Of a stretch of 64,000 nucleotides of DNA, positions 6,595-55,432 are shown piece after piece. The position numbers and the translations under genes are program-made. The notes below the pieces were generated by a model. The model ran no database searches and was not told where the DNA came from. It saw only the letters and a program-made list of their open reading frames with translations. The stretch's first letter is position 1. Each line of letters opens with the position of its first letter. The stretch covers positions 5,185,747-5,249,746 of the forward strand of contig NC_079488.1 in NCBI RefSeq assembly GCF_020520425.1. The letters are read 5' to 3'. This stretch comes from Spinacia oleracea (lineage: Eukaryota > Streptophyta > Magnoliopsida > Caryophyllales > Amaranthaceae).

Positions 6595-7097
6595 ACGTAC
6601 ATTATCCTTTTTATATTTTCTACTCGTAGAAAACATTATTGTTATGTTAATTACTTAATATCTCCTATTTAATTGTATTTACTACACACGTATTTACTTA
6701 GTTTGGTCCGCTATTCAGTAATTTATTGTTCACCGGGTTTTATTAAAAGTTCGTGTAAGTAATATAGATATAAATAGATAGAAATTTGTGATAGCTTAAT
6801 TTTGTTTATAGATATTTCCGGCGTATTATATAAGTTTCTCCAATCTAAATATATCCAATTATTCAATATAATGTGAGAACGATACGTGTCAGTTTTGTTT
6901 TTAGGGCCTCTCTTTTCATCTGTAATTCACCAAATATTCACTGTCAAAAAGTACCAAATAAATACTCATCTTGAAAATAATTACTTTTTCCCTCAAAAAA
7001 TTAAGAAAATAATTACTTTATATAAAAGCTCAACCGCATATATATAAAGTAATTTACTAACACACTATAAATAACTACCGAGTGTAAAACTATAAGA

Positions 7098-33014: not shown

Positions 33015-33179
33015 TTACTGAATGTCGGTAGTAGTAATGTGTTTGACCAAGTGGTAGTGATGAAGAAGCCTATTGGCTTCCCTTAAACCACTGAAGTAAG
33101 CACCATGAGTTGTGGAGTAATGAGTTCTATGTGTTGCTTCCCCGGCGAAGAGGATTTGTAGAGGTGGTGGTGGTGAACG

Positions 33180-33212
<33 letters not shown>

Positions 33213-34736
33213 CGTCTTTGTTGTTGTAGTCTCGAGGATGATTTTAGGCAGTGGTTGAGCCAGTGTGTCGAAATCATCACCACTAGATCCCACTGCAACA
33301 TGGCTATATGATCCCAAGAACAAAGGGTCTGTGCCCCATTTGCTCCTCAACACTTTCTTGAACTCAAACTTTGAATCCTTTTTCCCATTGCATAGATGAT
33401 TGAATTGATTAGGGTTAGAGTTTGAGATAAAGCTCGATAATGTAGTCGAAACACCATCGATGATCGCCTCATCCTCGAGAGACTCGAGCTCTAGAGCTTC
33501 TTTACCAGCAAACCATGAAAGCAAGACTCTTGAATTGTCATAGATTGGGTAAATAGAAGCTGTTTTCCTCATCCACCATGGTATCTTCCTATACCTAAAC
33601 TCCGAATCAGACCGAAAAAACGCCATTTTCATAAAGGGAAATTCTTCTTCTTGACCATTACTTTCTTCTGATGATGATGGGGTTAACTGTAAGAACAATT
33701 TGTTGACAACACCATACCCAAGCCTCGAAATTGCATCCCTTTTCACAAAAGGGAGTGGTGGGCTAAACAAACCTGACCCAGATTTGGATTCGGATTCTTC
33801 ATCACTGACTACTACTCCAGCTTTTAGTACTCCTAATGAAACTGTCACAATGACATGATCAGCTTCCATAATTGACCCATCAGAAAAATGCAGTTTCACA
33901 GGTCTGCTGTTACAACTACTGATAATACTACTACCACAATGATCATCATCATCTTCTTCATCATTATTATGCCACTCAATCTTGACAACTTTCCTACCCA
34001 ACTGGATCATTCCAGGAGGTAAAACTGAAGCTAAGGACTCAACAATGGTGATATAACCACGAGGGATCGTGATCTCGTCCCCAGAAAACATCCTGTACTC
34101 ACTTTCAGCAGCATAATCTAAACTAAACAGATCACCAGCACCAGTATATGTTCTCTGTGTGTTCTCAAATCCACTAAAAACAGCTTCTTCCACCATTTTC
34201 CTGCTCCAATTCCCACAAACATTATCATCATCTTCTTCAACCTTTCCACCTCTCAAATCCCAGAACTCTTGAAGCCCAATCTTCAGAAATGAGCCAATGC
34301 TGCTCACCTGCTTCCCACCCTTTTCAGGGCTACATTGAGCAACACTCATTAATCTATGAAAAAGTGATGAAATTGGGTCAACAACATCAGGATTAACCAC
34401 AAACCCGCCTTCGGCCCGAGTTTCTGCAATGGAAAGTTTCTCCTCAAACAAACCACCCATACATTCCCATGGTTTCTCAGACTCTAAAGACTTGATTTTT
34501 GTAGCAATCTCATAAACTGGACTCCCAGAAATCCCATGAATCCAAGTAGCACCCATCTCAATTCTATCACCACCAAACTCAGTAGTGTTAATCCTACCCC
34601 CAATCCTCTTCCCACCTTCAACAACACACAAATCAAAAGTCTGTTTCCCACCTGCTGCTGTGTACAGCTTGTTTGCTGCTGTCACACCCGCCATTCCTGC
34701 ACCAATTATCACTACTTTTGGCCTTTCAGCCCCCAT
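33015..34736 (-). CDS. PAO5: Polyamine oxidase, PAO5-like, single exon
   Basis: FAD-dependent amine oxidase that oxidises spermine or thermospermine; PAO5 enzymes are mostly cytosolic and intronless, which fits this uninterrupted 573-residue frame. The start MGAERPKVVIIGAGMAG gives the Rossmann dinucleotide motif GxGxxG at residues 12-17. VVEGGKRIGGRIN is the second FAD-contact block, followed by MGATWIHGISGSPVYEIA. The C-terminal FAD motif LFAGEATHRTHYSTTHGAYFSG lies near residues 529-550. It is somewhat longer than typical PAO5 (about 530 residues), partly through an acidic insert (EEDDDD, about 258-263) and a poly-Thr tract (about 503-520) encoded by an ACA microsatellite. No targeting peptide or peroxisomal SKL end is seen. 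The 3' flank runs at once into a Ty3/gypsy fragment, so its polyadenylation site must lie in transposon DNA. It looks functional. Confidence 0.93.
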
Positions 34737-45805: not shown

Positions 45806-46013
45806 TGTTACGATAGTACTTCGTATAATAGAATTAGGATACCACCAGGATCCTACTAGCATTCAAAGTAGAAATACGTAAGAGTTATATGGTTTATTAA
45901 CTTAGTCAGGAATAGCATATTGAGTTGCAGTAGGAATTGGTTACATGTTTGCTGTACTATAAATATTGGTGTTTATTTGATAATAAAGATATACGTTTTG
46001 AGTTAATTTGTCA
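45806..46013 (+). repeat. 5' LTR of the young copia element
   Basis: Starts TGTTACGATAGTA, ends TTTGTCA, and is followed directly by the tRNA primer site. A TATA-like ACTATAAATATTGG lies at about 45957. Confidence 0.95.
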
Positions 46014-46092: not shown

Positions 46093-49000
46093 ATGTCTAG
46101 CGAAGACGATGAGCCAAAGAAACCTTCGACAGAGGGCAAGAGTTTGAAGGAGGAAATCCTTGCCAAGGCCTATTATCTAGGTTCGAGTGAAAGTCCGGGT
46201 AATATCATAACCCCGATTAAATTAAGAGGATCGAAAAATTATGAAGAATGGTCGATGTCTGTACGAAGGGCATTGATTTCAAAGAGGAAGTTTGGGTTTA
46301 TTGATGGGTCAATTCCGGAACCCATTGATGATCCCGAAAGACTAGCAGATTGGATTGCGGTGCATTCTATGTTAGTCTCTTGGATAAAACACACATTGGA
46401 AGAGTCTCTACGATCGACCGTTGGAGACTATGATGATGCCGGAGCATTGTGGATACATCTTAAGAAACGATTTTGCGTAGTTAGCGGTACAAGGGTCTGT
46501 CAATTAAAGATGAAACTTAGTGATTGTAGGCAGGCTCAAGATGAAAGTGTAACCGATTATTATGGTCGTTTACACACAATATGGAAGGAGTTGGTTATGT
46601 TTGCTCGCGTGCCGAAGTGTTCTTGCGGGGCTTGCAAGTGCAATATTGCAGGACAAGTAGCAACTATAAGAGAAGAGGACTATCTCCACCACTTCCTCAT
46701 AGGGCTTGATACACCATATGAAGATAGACGCGCTCAATTGCTAGCACAAACACCACTGCCGGATATTGACGAGGCTTATCAAAGCATTATAAACACAGAA
46801 AGTCTGAGAAAAGACAAGGGAGGCAGAAGCAATGTGATGGCATTCAAGGTTGGGGTACGTGACACTACGAAGCATGATGATAATATTGAGCGGTTTTGCA
46901 ATCACTGTAACCGTAGGGGACACGATGAAGAAACTTGTTATCATATACATGGGTTCCCGGAGTGGTGGGACCCCAACCGTAGAGGTGGTCGAGGTAATGG
47001 ACGCACTGGAGGAAGAGGGGGCCGTGGAAGCCGAGGTAGTCGGAGCAGTCCGGGCAACAGCTCTTCTAATACAGGGGCAACAGTAACAGTTCGTGCCAAT
47101 AAAGTCTCGCAGCAGACTCCTCATGGACAACTAGGTGTTGCTTCCAAAGCAGGACTTACAGAAGGTCTGGTTGGTGTGACTGACTCCCAAGTGCAACAAA
47201 TATTGGAGATTTTACAACCTACTGCCAAAACAAAATTAAAGGGTAAGAAATCAGATTGTGAATGGATCGTAGATACAGGAGCATCAAATCATGTCACATC
47301 CGATCTCTCACTGTTGACGAATATTCAAACAATACCAAATTGTTCCGTCGGACTTCCCGACGGACAATATGCGAATGCTAACCAGATTGGTTCCGTTGTA
47401 CTAGAAGGAGGATTGGTGCTTCATAATGTTTTATTTGCTCCAAAATTAAACTGTAATTTAATTTCTGTTATGCAGTTAAATGATGAATCAAATTGTTCTG
47501 CTCAATTTACTAACAAAATATGTGTTATACAGGACCGATCGACGAGGAGGATGATTGGCCTGGGTAAACGAGTAGATGGACTATTTATTTTCCGTGGGAT
47601 CCCGGCGGTTAAAGTGCGTGCAGTTGGGACTGATTGTGTAGTAGAGCTGTGGCATCAACGAATGGGGCATCCATCGGATAAAATTCTGAAGCTTCTTCCT
47701 CCGGTACAGAGTATTGTTAGAAAAAGTAATAAAGTATGTGATGTATGTCCTCGTGCAAAACATACTAGGAGTAGTTTTCCTGTTAGTATGAATAAAGCAA
47801 ATAGAATGTTTGAATTAGTTCATCTAGATTTGTGGGGGCCCTACAAGACACGTTCGTCATGTGGAGCTCATTATTTTTTGACTATTGTTGACGATTATTC
47901 TAGAGCAGTGTGGATTTATTTACTTCGAAATAAAACTGAGGTTGAAGAAATGTTTATGAGTTTTGTTGCAATGATTAAAAGACAATTTAATGAAAAAATT
48001 AAAGTCATACGGAGTGATAATGGGACTGAGTTTAATTGTCTACAAGGTTATTTTTTTAAGAAATGTATTTTGTTTGAATCATCTTGTGTTGGTACCCCAC
48101 AACAGAATGGTCGGGTAGAACGAAAACATCAGCATCTTTTAAATGTAGCCCGTGCTTTAAGATTTCAAGCTAATTTACCCAAAAAGTTTTGGGGGAAGTG
48201 TGTTTTGTCGGCATGTTATTTGATTAATAGGACTCCCACACCATTGCTAGATAATAAAAGCCCGTATGAAATGCTATTTGGGAAAACACCATCATATGAG
48301 TTGATTCGAGTTTTTGGTTGTCTATGTTATGCTCATAATCAAAGGAGTAAAGGGGATAAATTCAATTCTCGGGGAAGACGATGTATTCTTATTGGCTATC
48401 CTTTTGGGAAGAAGGGGTGGCAATTGTTTGACTTGGAAACTCGGGAATTTTTTGTATCCCGAGATGTTCAATTTCATGAGAAGATATTCCCGTACACCAA
48501 AAGCTTGGGTCCGTCTGTTATTGAAGATGAGTTTGAGGTGCCAATCATTAACTATGACAGTGATTATGACACTGTTCTACATACCATAATTAATTCTGGA
48601 CAGCAGCCCAACATGGCATCGCAGACCATGGAGTCACGTGGTAGGCCAGTAGACACAGATGCAGGAAAATGCAATGAGGCGCTACATCCAAGTGAAGAGG
48701 CGCTGCAGCCCAGTGAAAGCACGATGCGAGAAACACTGCATCGAGGTGCCAAAAAGGCGCTGCACCAAGGCGCTGATGAGGCGCTGCCACAGGGCGCTGA
48801 TGAGGCGCACGGCGGGGCGACCCACTGTACTGCTGAGCCAGCACGCTGCAAAGAAGCAGTTCTTCCAACAGCGACAGTAAGCAGCAGTGAGTATACGACA
48901 CTGGGTAACAGCAATATAGATGAGGCAGCAGGTACAGAAAATAAGGATGAGTTAGGGAGAGGAAAGCGGATAAAAGTTCCGTCATTTAAACTACGGGATC

Positions 49001-49343
49001 ACGTCACGCACACTATACGGAAAAGTAATAGTCCTTCGGCAAATTCATCCACGACATTGTCTTCCTCAGGTACTCCTTACCCTATAACATATTTTGTTAA
49101 TTATGAACGATTTTCTGCAAAACATAGAAATTTTATTGCAGCCATTACAGATAGCAAAGCCCCGAAAACATTTAAAGAGGCTATGAAACATGAAGCATGG
49201 AGAGATGCGATGGCGGCAGAGATTGATGCACTTGAAGGACAAGGAACATGGGTATTAGAAAAATTACCTCCAGGAAAGAAAGCACTAGAAAGCAAGTGGG
49301 TGTATACGGAAAAGAAAGATGAGGATGGAAACTTGATCCGGAA
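46093..49343 (+). pseudogene. Copia gag-pol, first part (gag, protease, integrase, RT start), cut by CACTA
   Basis: An open frame from the ATG at 46093, just after the leader. Residues 1-260: gag of the UBN2 type. The CCHC zinc knuckle CNHCNRRGHDEETC is near 269, followed by a Gly/Arg-rich stretch. Protease DTGASNH is near 393. The GAG-pre-integrase block LWHQRMGH is near 520. Integrase has HLDLWGPY near 577, DNGTEF near 641 and the PQQNGRVERKH segment near 670. The RT start WRDAMAAEIDALEGQ lies near 1036. The frame is intact until the CACTA insertion at 49344, after which translation runs into transposon DNA. The product resumes at 53876. Intact motifs suggest it was recently active; I describe it only as the interrupted copy present here. 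Confidence 0.93.
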
Positions 49344-49359
49344 CACTAGTGGAAAACTC

Positions 49360-49635
49360 TTCATTTGCGTCGCTGTATTTGCGTCACACATTTAAACACG
49401 CGACGCATCAGTTGAATATTAGTCTGAAATTTTATCATTTGCGTCGCAGTTCAACTTTGAGCGACGCAAATTACGAATTATCTTTAAATTAAGTCAATTG
49501 CGTCGTCGATTTATTAAACTGCGACGCAATATTAATTAATCTTGCGTCGTAGATTAATAAACTAGCGACGTAGTTGACATATAGAAAGATATTCAGTCAA
49601 TTGCGTCGCTCATTTATTAATCTGCGACGCACTGA
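49360..49635. repeat. Left subterminal repeats of the CACTA element
   Basis: Roughly ten TTGCGTCGC or GCGACGCAA motifs, mostly paired as inverted arms with 10-20 bases between them (for example CATTTGCGTCGCAG facing GAGCGACGCAAATT). Confidence 0.85.
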
Positions 49636-52079
49636 CATTTCCATTTTTCCATTTACACATGTTCCGCCTACCTTCTCCATACCTCTCTTTCTCTCTCATC
49701 CGCTTCATTTCAAAGCTTGAAACCTCAACCGTCAAAAACTCTCTTTCTCCGCCACCCTCCTCGTCCAGTTGAAGACTCCTACAACTTTCTCTCTCCTCAA
49801 AAATTCCAATCACTAGAATTGAGACCGAAAATTACAAAGTCCATGAAAAGAGCTCTGCGAAAATAACAAGAGGAAAAACGCTAGGTTCCGGCGCGACGAT
49901 GAAGGCAAAATATCGAAGCAGTATGAATGGTTTGTAGTTCCGGTACTTTCTCTCTCTCATACCCTAGTTCCGAAGTTTATCATGTTTTGCTTATGTTGAT
50001 TTTGGTGAACCTAGGGTTTTTGTTTTTTGTTATCGATTGATTTAAGATTGTTTTCCGGTGAGTCGTCAGATCTGCAACTTATTTCTTTGGCATCAAATTG
50101 TATGATTTTATATAGCAACAGATACAGTACAGATTCGTTCAATATTAGGGTTTTGGATAAAATTCTTGTTTAAATTGTGTTTTTTAGAAGCTGGTAGCGT
50201 AATTGGGAAAATTTCCATCCACTTTACTTGGTGATTCGTATATATTTAGGGTTCATGGTTGGGAATTTTAGGTTTAATTTGTTGTTTGATTGAATTTTCG
50301 GAAATTTAGAACTAGTAAATTTCACTTCAATATTCGTTAATAATCGTAGAACTCTATGTAGATTATGTATTAAGATGCTTAATTTGAGTTTAATTTCAGT
50401 TAGTACGAGAATCTGATTATTAGATATAGTTCGTCAGTATTTGAAGTGTTTTGCGATTGATTTAGAGTGTTTAGAAACTTAATATTTGGCTGTTATCTAA
50501 TTGTGGAATTTTTGACACTTGTTTTTTAGGGTAATTGAAATTATTCCTTAATTTTATGGTAATGAAATGGTTATGCAATTATATGGCTGTGAATATAGGA
50601 AATCACATGAGAAGTTTGATGCAGAAGCTTTAAATTCTACTTATATTGGTGGATTCTGTAAAACCCATATTTCAGGGTGTTTTGATTTTTGTGGATGGGA
50701 AATTTGACAGATTCTAGTATCTCAATATCAAACCCGAATTGGAAATTTGACATGCTTTTAATTCAATTATCTTTGTGCCTTATTAGGGTTTGAATCCCTA
50801 ATCACATATGAAGTATTTCATATTTTCATCACTGATGTTATGTGGAGATTCTAGACAACCGTCATTTGCGTTCCTGGGACGTTCTTATTGTTAACAAACT
50901 TATGTAAGTATTTGCATTTTGCAGATGGCTAAGATGTGCAAAGAAGCAGCATACAGGGGTAAGTGCAAGCTTTTCGGCTTTGTACAGTTCATTATTACAC
51001 TAGCTGTTGGTGCCTTTTGTAAACTTGGCTACTTTGTTAATTAAGTTGTGTATGAGACTGCGCATTTATTTGGCCCCTGAAGGTTTATACTTCTATTCTT
51101 GCTCATTGCTCATTGAATGTAGGGTCTAAATAGTAGTTTTGATGTACAGGTAGTCATGTACGAAGTATGATATATGTGAATATGGAATCATATCATGTTT
51201 TCTCATCCTTGTCACTGAGTGGCAAGATTGAAGTTGTGTCTATATATTCCTGCATTAAGCTGATTATTAATTGAATCTTCTGAGTTCTGACCAAAGCTAT
51301 AACATGTTGAATCCAAGTATTGGTTTACGCGTAGTTGATTGTCCAGTTTGTTGAGCTTATGCATGACTTTATTAATCCTGTGTTAGTTGAGTTTGTCCCT
51401 TTGTCTAGCTGTGTTGATTTATTTTCGTTCATACAGCTTTGAACCGTGTGTTTAGTCAGATTTTGTAGGTTGTACTTTGTGGATTCTGTGGTAGGAGATA
51501 TAACTTACCCTTTAAACATTTAAACGTCTGCGTAAAACTAACACTATTAGTTAACTTAATCTGATTAGCCTAGTTTATAGGGACAGTAAGTGAGGCCTGG
51601 ATGGTACATATGAAACCCCTAACATTTCAAGTTAAAAAGGAATGAAATTGATGTCCGGTTTCTTTAATTTGTTCTTATGTACATAGTGATTGACTGAGCT
51701 GCTACGTGCCTATGAACTAAATGATTACAAATACTTTAATCGTTGAATTGTTTGAGTCTGGATGATTGATCTTTAGTTGCGCTCAGTTCAATGAGAGTTA
51801 TATTAAAAAGTTATTGAAGTTTCTTTGTCTGCTTAATGACGTGTGAAGTGTATCTATTGGTTAGCTTGAACTGGCAGTGTTTTCACTAGTTTTATCTTAT
51901 TGCAGGTTTACGACATATATTAATCTGTATAAAATTCATCTTCATGTGTCAGGCTGTTTAAATAACATGAATTTTTTTGTTGTTGTAGTATCTACTGATA
52001 GGTGCCTTGGGGTTACTTGTCAAGTTGTCATTACTTTCAAGGACCGAGGAAACGAAAGTAGCTGGTGCAGACTGAACAA

Positions 52080-52450
52080 TTGTGACAGTACGTTGAACCT
52101 CAAAACCATGCGAGGGTCTCTCAAGCAGAGCTCTTGACGAGGCAGCTGCTATACCGTTGCCTGTTGTCAAGTCATTGTTGGGTCCCTACCTGGTTTTCTT
52201 ATCCTCCACAGTGAATGGGTATGATGTGCATGCTCACCCTGTCTTTTCTATTTCATGGTCATTATGAAATAGAAATACATACTAATTGATAATTCTTAGA
52301 GTTATCTATCCTCTTTTAGATAAAGTGTATACACATATGTGTCACTGAGATGTATTTGTTTCAGATATGAAGGCACTGGCCGCTCTTTGTCTCTGAAGCT
52401 TGTCAGTCATTTGGAAAAGCAGAGTCACAACCCTGCCACTGGTGTGATTT
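52080..52450 (+). pseudogene. Captured fragment of an RNA cytidine acetyltransferase gene (NAT10/Kre33 family), two exons
   Basis: NAT10-type enzymes put N4-acetylcytidine on 18S rRNA and tRNA in the nucleolus. Exon A (about 52080-52218) carries QYVEPQNHARVSQAELL and then, after a small deletion and frame change, DEAAAIPLPVVKSLLGPYL and VFLSSTVNG. This is the Walker B/DEAA region of the RNA helicase module. A GT donor follows at 52219. Exon B starts at 52365 after TTTCAG and continues in phase: GYEGTGRSLSLKLVSHLEKQ. The junction NG/YEGTGRS restores the family's conserved block exactly. A stop codon and deletion in exon A make it a pseudogene. The rest of the roughly 1000-residue protein is absent. 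It lies inside the CACTA element, so it is a captured fragment. Recognition is from memory of the family. Confidence 0.85.
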
Positions 52451-53097
52451 CAGGAAATTCTGGTAGTAGTTTATTTTTTCTTGCTGTGGAATCCTTCAGA
52501 ATGATGTTTTTATTTTGCATCTCTTTCCCACTTGAAGAAATGTTATTAGGATGGATTAATGTGATATCTGAAACTGTTGGCCAAGTCAATGAAATTAGAG
52601 ATTCTACTCTCAATTCTCAAAACTATCAAGGTTTTACTAAGAGTTCACCACTTTGTTTGAATTTATTAATTTAACCACTCACCGGTAATTTGGACTTGAT
52701 TCTATGCATGTCTTCTTACTGAGGTCGTCAATCCTAATGCTGAAATGGTAAAGTATGTCTAGAATTTGGCCAGGAAGAAATTAGAATTGACAGCAGCAGG
52801 TGTGATCTGTTCGTTTTAGTTGTTGTTCTGTTCTGTTCTGTTTCGTTGCTATTCTGTTTTGTGTTGTTCTGTTGCTGTTCTGTGCATTCTATTCTGTTCA
52901 TTCTGTTCTGTCCGTGCATTATATTAAGTACATGTCATTATTTGTTCTGCATGTTAAATAAATGTTGTGAGATGCATGGGTAGTGCGTTGCATTTATGGC
53001 TGCTTTGTCTGAACAGCTTATATGCGCTCCCTTTATGCGTTAATGCTCTCTCTTGACTTTTCTTCTCACATGTCTGCCTTGTTTGCTTTTTTTTTGC

Positions 53098-53263
53098 TGA
53101 GGCTGAAGCTGAAGCTGTTCCCACAAAGACTACACTTAGATCAGATCATGGAGAGGAGTTTAGGAGGCAGCACCAAGCTGAACTTGCTGGTGGAGGTGCA
53201 GGGGTGGGAGATAATCGCTCAGCATGGAGATCTTTACTTTTGGTCTGTATTGGGTACTTAATA
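53098..53263 (+). other. Unrecognised coding-like fragment in the CACTA element
   Basis: In the frame beginning near 53102 the sequence reads AEAEAVPTKTTLRSDHGEEF followed by RRQHQAELAGGG, preceded by a T-rich tract and a TG-AG-like acceptor. Its composition is exon-like, unlike the surroundings. I do not recognise it; it may be a further captured exon or part of the original element's gene. Confidence 0.35.
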
Positions 53264-53403
53264 TAAATTATTAGAAATACAATGATTGTTTCCCGTATTG
53301 TAAGATTTATTATCTTTATTGTCCTTATGTTTTAAGCCTTATCTAGTAATGAGTTTACCATTTTACTATAGTAAAATGGAACCTATTTTTTTAACAAAAT
53401 CTA

Positions 53404-53860
53404 AAGTCGTTTGTGTCGCACTTTAGCTAATCTGCGACGCAAATGACTATTTTTTTTAACATATTGAAAAGTCATTTGCGTCGCACTTTAGCTAATCTGC
53501 GACGCAAATGACTATTTTTTTTAACATATTAAAAAGTCATTTGCGTCGCACTTTAGCTAATCTGCGACGCAAATGACTATTTTTTTAACATATTGAAAAG
53601 TCATTTGCGTCGCAGTTTAGCTAAACTGCGACGCAAATGACTTTTCGACATTTAAAAAAATAGTCATTTGCGTCGCAGATTAGCTAAAGTGCGACGCAAA
53701 TGACCATTATTTGCGTCGCCCAAAAGTGCGACGCAAATGACCATTATTTGCGTCGCCCAAAAGTGCGACGCAAATGACTTTTTTCATTTGCGTCGATGCC
53801 AGTTGCGTCGCACCAATGTGCGACGCAAATGAGCTTAAATGATCGACGCAAATAAGTGTT
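53404..53860. repeat. Right subterminal array: tandem palindromic TTTGCGTCGC units
   Basis: Four near-identical units with period 64-65 bases (starts near 53406, 53471, 53536, 53600). Each contains GTCATTTGCGTCGCA, 12 bases, and TGCGACGCAAATGAC, a perfect or near-perfect 15-bp hairpin arm. An inverted unit (about 53640-53703) and shorter TTTGCGTCGCCCAAAAGTGC repeats follow up to the terminal inverted repeat. Confidence 0.92.
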
Positions 53861-53875
53861 TTTCCACTAGTGGAA

Positions 53876-55225
53876 TAAGGCACGATTGGTCTGCCTAGGC
53901 AATCATCAGGAAGAAGGTACGGATTATAATGAAAATTTTGCACCGGTTGCTAAAATGTCGACAGTTCGAACTTTCTTAGCCGTTGCAGCAGTGAAAGGTT
54001 GGGAGGTACATCAAATGGATGTGCATAATGCTTTCTTACATGGTGACCTAGAAGAGGAAATTTATATGAAAATTCCGCCTAGATTTCAAAAAGATAATAC
54101 TAACATGGTTTGCATGATGAAAAAATCATTGTATGGTTTGAAACAGGCACCCAGGTGTTGGTTTGAGAAATTGTCTACTGCCCTGAAGCAGTATGGATTC
54201 AAACAGTCATATTCAGATTACTCATTGTTCACCCTTTCGAAAGGGGATTTGCAGTTAAGTGTGCTAGTATATGTGGATGATATGATAATTGCAGGAAACA
54301 ATGTCTTTGCATTAAATAGTTTTAAAGCCTACTTGAGCCAATGCTTTAAAATGAAGGATCTAGGACACCTGAAATATTTTTTAGGTCTCGAAGTGGCACG
54401 CAGTAAGAGTGGATTTTATGTCTGTCAACGAAAATATGCCTTAGACATTATTTCTGAGACAGGACTGTTAGGTGCAAAGCCTGCGGATTTTCCGATGGAG
54501 CAAAACCACAAGTTAGCACTTGCAGATGGAAAGGATTTTGATGATGGAGAAAAATATAGGCGACTTATTGGCCGTCTAATTTACTTGGCAGTTACAAGAC
54601 CAGATCTGGCATATTCAGTACATATCTTGTCACAGTTTATGCAGACACCAAAGAGGAACATTGGGAAGCAGCATTGAGAGTAGTACGGTACTTGAAAAAA
54701 TGTCCTGGACAAGGCATTCTCCTACGTTCTGACAGTGCATTACGTCTAGAAGGATGGTGTGACTCGGACTGGGCTAGTTGCCCACTAACGCGGCGTTCTT
54801 TAACGGGGTGGTTCGTATTACTTGGTTTTTCTCCGGTGGCCTGGAAAACTAAAAAACAGCATACAGTGTCGCGTTCGTCAGCAGAGGCAGAGTATCGTTC
54901 AATGGCAGCACTCACATGTGAATTAAAGTGGTTAAAACAATTACTCGGTGATCTAGGGGTGGAGCACAAGCATGGTATGAATGTGTTTTGTGATAGTCAG
55001 TCTGCACTTCACATAGCACAAAACCCAGTTTTTCATGAGAGGACAAAACATATTGAGGCAGATTGTCACTTTATACGAGATGCAATTAAAGAAGGCATTA
55101 TTTGTCCGTCATATGTGTCTACAAAGGTCCAGTTAGCAGATATTTTTACAAAGGCACTAGGAAAGGCACAATTCGAATTTTTTCTTCACAAGATGGGCAT
55201 TCGAGATCTTCATGCTCCACCTTGA
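53876..55225 (+). pseudogene. Copia gag-pol, second part (RT and RNase H), with a frameshift
   Basis: Continues the RT after the CACTA insertion: ARLVCLGNH, NFAPVAKMSTVRTFLAV, QMDVHNAFLHGDL, KSLYGLKQAPRCW, and the catalytic VYVDDMIIAGNN at about 54270. A single-base loss in the A-run near 54650 shifts the frame. The remainder (54674-55225) holds the RNase H domain: LEGWCDSDWASCP, SRSSAEAEYRSMAAL, CDSQSALHIA, ADIFTKALGKAQ. It ends just before the polypurine tract. Confidence 0.92.
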
Positions 55226-55231
55226 GGGGGA

Positions 55232-55432
55232 TGTTACGATAGTATAATAGAATTAGGATACCACCAGGATCCTACTAGCATTCAAAGTAGAAATACGTAA
55301 GAGTTATATGGTTTATTAACTTAGTCAGGAATAGCATATTGAGTTGCAGTAGGAATTGGTTACATGTTTGCTGTACTATAAATATTGATGTTTATTTGAT
55401 AATAAAGATATACGTTTTGAGTTAATTTGTCA
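55232..55432 (+). repeat. 3' LTR of the young copia element
   Basis: 201 bp, TGTTACGATAGTATAATAG to TTTGTCA, immediately after CTTGAGGGGGA. Identical to the 5' LTR apart from one indel and one base. Confidence 0.95.

Follow-up and report, generated by a model that had tools for sequence, protein, structure and literature searches.

Structure and probable fusion origin of a spinach Pack-CACTA element that carries NAT10 and SPT16 fragments

The Pack-CACTA and Pack-TYPE elements were reportedly described by Catoni et al. in 2019. In the fusion model for Pack-TYPE elements, neighbouring insertions are mobilised together and inner or terminal parts are lost, as set out in passages of Gisby and Catoni (2022, PMC8903248) and of a 2026 review (PMC13317346). 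For Pack-CACTA elements of other plants, such fusion is deduced in passages of the former paper on the basis of AB-type families and mobilised lines (PMC8903248). Here we analyse a CACTA element in 64,000 nucleotides of Spinacia oleracea DNA (assembly GCF_020520425.1, contig NC_079488.1, positions 5,185,747 to 5,249,746), a stretch that is called the window throughout. The element carries pieces of the genes NAT10 and SPT16 and is very probably a Pack-CACTA element that arose by fusion of two elements, A and B, which moved jointly, were trimmed internally and were amplified again.

The Pack-CACTA and Pack-TYPE elements of Arabidopsis, rice and maize are the closest described systems. As presented in passages of PMC8903248, they likewise are non-autonomous, have terminal inverted repeats (TIRs) and target-site duplications and combine several host loci in one element, and their AB fusions comprise neighbouring insertions separated by further DNA, the inner ends having been lost by deletion or mutation. 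The spinach case differs from them in the plant and the plant family, and in that a single genome contains relatives of both parents, an A-linker-B arrangement, a form that was trimmed and amplified again, and a relative of the linker in which no element is present; for the AB example from rice, as given in the same passages, the origin of the DNA between the parts is unknown. The soybean element Tgm-Express1, as described in passages of PMC1947982, is likewise of CACTA type and holds fragments of several unrelated host genes with exons and introns preserved. It is, however, inserted within an F3H intron and contributes its fragments to transcripts by splicing, whereas the present element has a Copia target and is known from DNA alone. 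Gene fragments in CACTA elements of the Amaranthaceae are described for Chenopodium (Neprosin and AP2) in passages of PMC8978399; there they lie upstream of a transposase-associated domain, whereas the spinach element has no long frame, carries other genes and has a traced fusion.

In the literature searched, mostly titles and passages, we found no report of this element family or of CACTA elements with pieces of NAT10 or SPT16. In the features tested, the window element fits the published Pack-CACTA fusion model. It is a clear, well-documented case of a process known from other plants. Because the composite before trimming, the product after it and relatives of both parents coexist, the order of events, i.e. 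that the composite moves and the inner end is lost later, becomes testable in accessions of one plant.

Proposed parents A and B and their probable composite

Window 49344-51052 was 98.7% identical to the first 1.7 kb of L057, a complete CACTA element of 4.1 kb on C1 (18-4163) with an ATG/ATG duplication, in which neither the NAT10 part nor the SPT16 part had a match. L057 is one of three places on C1 that contain the whole A query at 99%, none of them in the list of NAT10 matches; all genome-wide match counts given here refer to one host assembly and are lower bounds. The part from 51058 to 53872 is shared with L025 in three blocks (98.2%, 97.5% and, in the last one, 85.6% identity) with longer DNA between them. 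Both parents are represented in L024, located on C4 at 33.557-33.567 Mb, which consists of the first 1.77 kb of A, a linker of ~200 bp and then B, from an inner 5' end at 2574 through the 3' end of B. Its outer flanks are ATA/ATA and its inner left flank is GTC. Five compared blocks of L024 and the window were 97.6-98.7% identical, and all ten block comparisons gave 97.5-98.7%, with gaps left uncounted.

The best relative of the linker, L059, matched it at 93% over 146 columns, ending one base before the inner end of B. Past this boundary L059 resembled B no more than chance would give, 535 of 2000 random positions in L059 scoring as high, and the idea of a CACTA end immediately beyond it was rejected; GCGTCG was not found in the 574 bases that follow the boundary. 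The motif GAGTT is common to A, L024 and L059 at the A/linker junction, which would fit microhomology joining. We consider it probable that L024 is a frozen Pack-CACTA fusion intermediate, that is, two elements and the intervening host DNA which moved as one with the inner end intact, and that the window form is a trimmed and re-amplified descendant of such a composite, the steps of shuffling being readable in one genome.

In the origin that we propose, an older CACTA lineage, B, would have taken up SPT16 DNA and DNA of a NAT10 paralogue. Element A would then have come to be situated just upstream of a copy of B in the same orientation. The 3' half of A would have been lost, and the pair would have moved as a unit from the 5' end of A to the 3' end of B, a state kept in L024. 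Later internal deletions would have removed the linker together with the 5' end of B, 717 bp before NAT10 and ~1.3 kb before SPT16, giving the 4.5-kb window form, which would have transposed anew to four or more places, among them the Copia element in the window. The structures can be read directly from the assembly, whereas we infer the order of these events (composite first, deletion later) and the supply of transposase from elsewhere. An earlier note on this DNA had proposed gene capture by a CACTA element. Exons and an intron were indeed taken up from DNA; the capture was most likely not the work of the window element, because its gene pieces are also present in sister elements that are built differently, and the form in the window would be a trimmed hybrid of two.

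Several observations weigh against this origin. L025 does not qualify as the exact parent B: identity is only 85.6% in the last block (window 52855-53872), and its 5' subterminal part is unlike the inner one of L024 (154 gap columns). L025 is also flanked by CAC/CAT, and another copy, L023, has lost its 5' terminus. The ATA match of L024 requires a change of the 5' terminal C to T, the 3' end is changed as well, and a 3-bp flank would match by chance in about 1 of 64 cases. The linker is non-unique, with five matches at four places (75-93%) besides L024. L059 carries 378 bp in mid-linker that are absent from L024, which makes it a relative of the linker, not a proven source site. For 49640-52070, about half of the element, no origin was found.

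The strongest alternative, which we nevertheless regard as unlikely, is that A and B were never mobilised jointly and that the window type came from recombination or end joining of separate elements at 51047/51058. The subterminal repeats common to this CACTA family could pair, and the ATA match of L024 could be due to chance. However, the junction lies in internal DNA and shows no homology by eye, and the A-linker-B arrangement does exist in L024. Somewhat less likely still is that the window form is ancestral and that the longer L024 and L025 were made from it by later nested insertions. In its favour, the forms have their junctions in common and a direction cannot be read from length alone, but the 717 bp before NAT10 continue the NAT10 intron upstream and are homologous to L026, L027, L028, L030, L032 and L034. 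Moreover, the L024 DNA that is absent at 51052/51058 has a CACTA 5' end and 0.8 kb which are 96.7% identical to L025, and the window junction contains filler.

Some further observations concern the interior of the two blocks. A sister group of A is more numerous, with eleven places (e. g. G000:C6:79746957) at 94-95% over query 5-1138; all eleven also have a separate match at query 1190-1413. A genome search with the interior of the A block gave no origin. Three or more modules (query 1-124, 122-582 and 579-1013), each of which is found separately elsewhere in the genome, form a mosaic in window 51058-52070; this suggests repeated module shuffling. Window 51885-52070 matched C4:169807352 (L058) at 83%; no gene was recognisable there by eye, and no family search was made.

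Ends, motifs and coding content

The earlier description of a cleanly bounded CACTA element with a GAA duplication holds: the inverted ends are perfect, GAA is present on both sides, and the motifs are confined to the element (Table 1). Allowing up to one mismatch, CACTAGTGGAAAA had three matches in the window, a number reached in none of 100 shuffles. All 13 exact copies of TTTGCGTCGCA in the window lie within the element (expectation 0.02). Inverted ends that begin with CACTA, a 3-bp duplication and subterminal repeats in both orientations place the element in the CACTA superfamily. Among the features of Pack-CACTA elements, we found host gene DNA inside the TIRs without transposase, repeated copies with the same cargo and growth by fusion of neighbouring insertions; the last is drawn from the structures of L057, L024, L025 and L059, and the joint move of the composite hangs on the ATA flanks of L024.

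The longest stop-to-stop frame on either strand of the element is 116 aa. No TNP2-type transposase was found when six frames of the element were compared with Pfam, two matching NAT10 and four having no match. The missing transposase is as expected for a non-autonomous CACTA member.

Table 1. Positions of the element, its parts and its target in the window
Feature	Position	Strand	Remarks
Whole non-autonomous CACTA (Pack-CACTA) element	49344..53872	+	4,529 bp; TIRs, GAA duplication, subterminal motifs
5' terminal inverted repeat CACTAGTGGAAAA	49344..49356	+	exact 13-bp match
3' terminal inverted repeat	53860..53872	-	exact CACTAGTGGAAAA, perfect 13-bp partner
GAA target-site duplication, left	49341..49343		
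GAA target-site duplication, right	53873..53875		
Left block, parent A	49344..51047	+	edge by eye at the junction; blastn reaches 51052
A/B junction filler	51048..51057		5-10 nt from neither parent, by eye (junctions of window, L057, L024)
Block of parent B	51058..52070	+	98.2% to L025, 98.7% to L024
End of NAT10-paralogue intron 9 with 3' splice site	52071..52088	+	717 bp of L024/L025 absent at left edge
NAT10 exon 10 fragment	52089..52218	+	starts after CAG; 7-bp deletion
NAT10-paralogue intron 10, GT...AG	52219..52364	+	alignable to L026 intron; splice phase as in host gene
NAT10 exon 11 fragment	52365..52464	+	3' edge placed by next GT, as in L026
NAT10-paralogue intron 11, partial	52465..52788	+	L026 alignment stops at 52788
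SPT16 (FACT) fragment, intron end and exon from ~53101	52920..53234	+	~16, 12 and 36 nt lost relative to host gene
3' subterminal repeat array	53383..53832		TTTGCGTCGCA, both orientations
Interrupted Copia coding region, target of the element	46093..55225	+	

The NAT10 and SPT16 fragments

The assignment to the NAT10/Kre33 family, made in the earlier note, was borne out by Pfam and the PDB. PF05127 was found over the cut-off (2e-7) in 52097-52264, the frame with the first exon, and under it (0.0094) in 52324-52671, the frame with the second; in the PDB, six NAT10/Kre33 sequences matched (2.5e-11 to 1.5e-9). The exon junction, GG/A with GT-AG borders, is in phase as had been stated, and the host gene has donor and acceptor at the same places. 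Of the exon borders proposed earlier, 52218 and 52365 stand, whereas the first exon starts at 52089, not 52133, and the second extends to 52464, not 52440. The retained intron indicates capture from DNA. In the window element, L024 and L025, exon 10 is short of 7 bp that are present in L026, L027, L028 and L030; this deletion breaks the NAT10 frame, so that no read-through is possible. A TGA was counted in six copies, and in the four aligned ones (L026, L027, L028, L030) it lies in the intron end before CAG. Position 52071, where the alignments of L026, L027 and L032 begin, was considered as a capture edge and rejected: L024 and L025 continue upstream, which makes it a deletion edge.

The host NAT10 gene on C3 is, by the impression from its frames, seemingly complete. 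The earlier note had suggested that the capture edges be located by alignment to the host's intact gene. This gene is not the donor, however: it matched in the exons only, at 77% and 81% identity by blastn (72-82% across all copies and L026), and blastn gave no match between its introns and the captured piece. All three genome matches of the acetyltransferase domain PF13718 are at the C3 locus; thus no second full NAT10 gene was found in the assembly. There is, however, a relic of a second NAT10 gene (L026, G000:C6:6041100-6050900), with exons 10, 11 and 13, which are stop-free where matched, and introns that can be aligned to the captured ones. A tblastn search of 15 exon peptides against the 9.8 kb of L026 did not find exons other than these three. 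No convincing CACTA end was seen in the same 9.8 kb: exact CACTAGTGG is absent, and there are end-like matches only at up to three mismatches, e. g. CACTAGTGAGACA at 6652 of the oriented locus.

Between L026 and L025 the introns differ by 17.1%, exon 10 by 7.7% and exon 11 by 11.2%; between L027 and L026 exon 10 differs by 7.3% and the introns by 16.5%. The lower divergence of the exons of L026 and L025 suggests that the lines split while the exons were still constrained. The donor of the NAT10 piece is a diverged paralogue, and L026 is the one relic of such a paralogue that was found; it would more probably be a sister of the donor than the source itself. The cargo of such elements can come from a gene copy for which this assembly yielded no more than a relic.

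The piece at 52920-53234 matches the host SPT16 gene L056 on C4 and, going by this match, is a second captured gene which the earlier note had overlooked. The match in L056 is in the same reading frame as PF08644 (1.5e-36), which sits just downstream in L056. A PDB search with the piece gave nothing meaningful, and the identification stands on the host gene. Identity was 85.0% (277 of 326 aligned columns), or 72.5% by blastn with gaps counted. The 36-nt loss is common to all 11 aligned element copies, which points to a single capture of SPT16. The genome search found SPT16 at 23 places besides the host gene, four of these being 38-nt matches only. Five of the SPT16 loci (L043-L047) extend to the 3' end of the element and are missing from the NAT10 match list, within the limits of that search; their absence of NAT10 is judged from this list, and their flanks stop short of the NAT10 position of the long forms (L025). 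SPT16 may therefore have come first, though loss of NAT10 at these loci is equally possible.

With the NAT10 frame broken and no frame above 116 aa, the gene pieces are most likely passengers. That the 5' region and the captured exons form a functional chimeric gene retained by selection is a reading to which we give little credit, a shade less than to an ancestral window form. The NAT10 splice sites are preserved, exons 10 and 11 of L025 and exon 10 of L027 are less diverged from L026 than the introns, and exon 10 is open in all six of L026-L031. However, slower exon change can predate the capture, the window form has the 7-bp frame break, its SPT16 piece has lost 12 and 36 nt, and its longest frame stays short. 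That the NAT10 similarity is due to chance or to another helicase, as might be said of short fragments of which the second exon alone remains under the Pfam cut-off, can be dismissed in view of the PF05127 match, the NAT10 chains in the PDB (from 2.5e-11), the exon junction shared with the host gene and the lack of a better family match in the Pfam and PDB searches.

Related copies and the insertion site

Window 52080-52450 matched 16 places, namely 14 elements of CACTA type, the host gene and L026; the outcome that would have spoken against the earlier note, a segment lying outside CACTA ends in all relatives, was thus not seen. The 14 elements are the window element, L021-L025, L027-L031 and L032-L034. 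Both ends were recognised in 13 of them (in all except L023), and 12 have exact 3-bp duplications, one changed terminal base being allowed for L024. The window form exists in four copies (window, L021, L022, L023), which differ by 0.33-1.16% substitutions in pairwise comparison; the duplications of the three with intact ends are GAA, ACT and ATC. This low divergence suggests that the copies may have moved recently.

L032, L033 and L034 are related elements whose two ends are unlike, with CACTAGTACAAAA at the 5' end and CACTAGTGGAAAACTCTT (reverse complement) at the 3' end, and the duplications are TGT, TTA and TAG. The 3' end CACTAGTGGAAAACTCTT resembles the 5' end of the window element. These three may be hybrids too.

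When the flanks of the window element were joined (60 bp per side, with a single GAA), an open Copia pol frame resulted, LESKWVYTEKKDEDGNLIRNKARLVCLGNHQEEGTDYNE. Direct repeats at 45806-46013 and 55232-55432 are 96.2% identical (208 columns, 7 of them gap columns) and are taken as the long terminal repeats of this Copia element. Their identity points to a young Copia insertion and to a still younger insertion of the CACTA element inside it. Elsewhere in the window, the minus strand has an open frame of 573 aa at 33015-34736, which we take to resemble polyamine oxidase.

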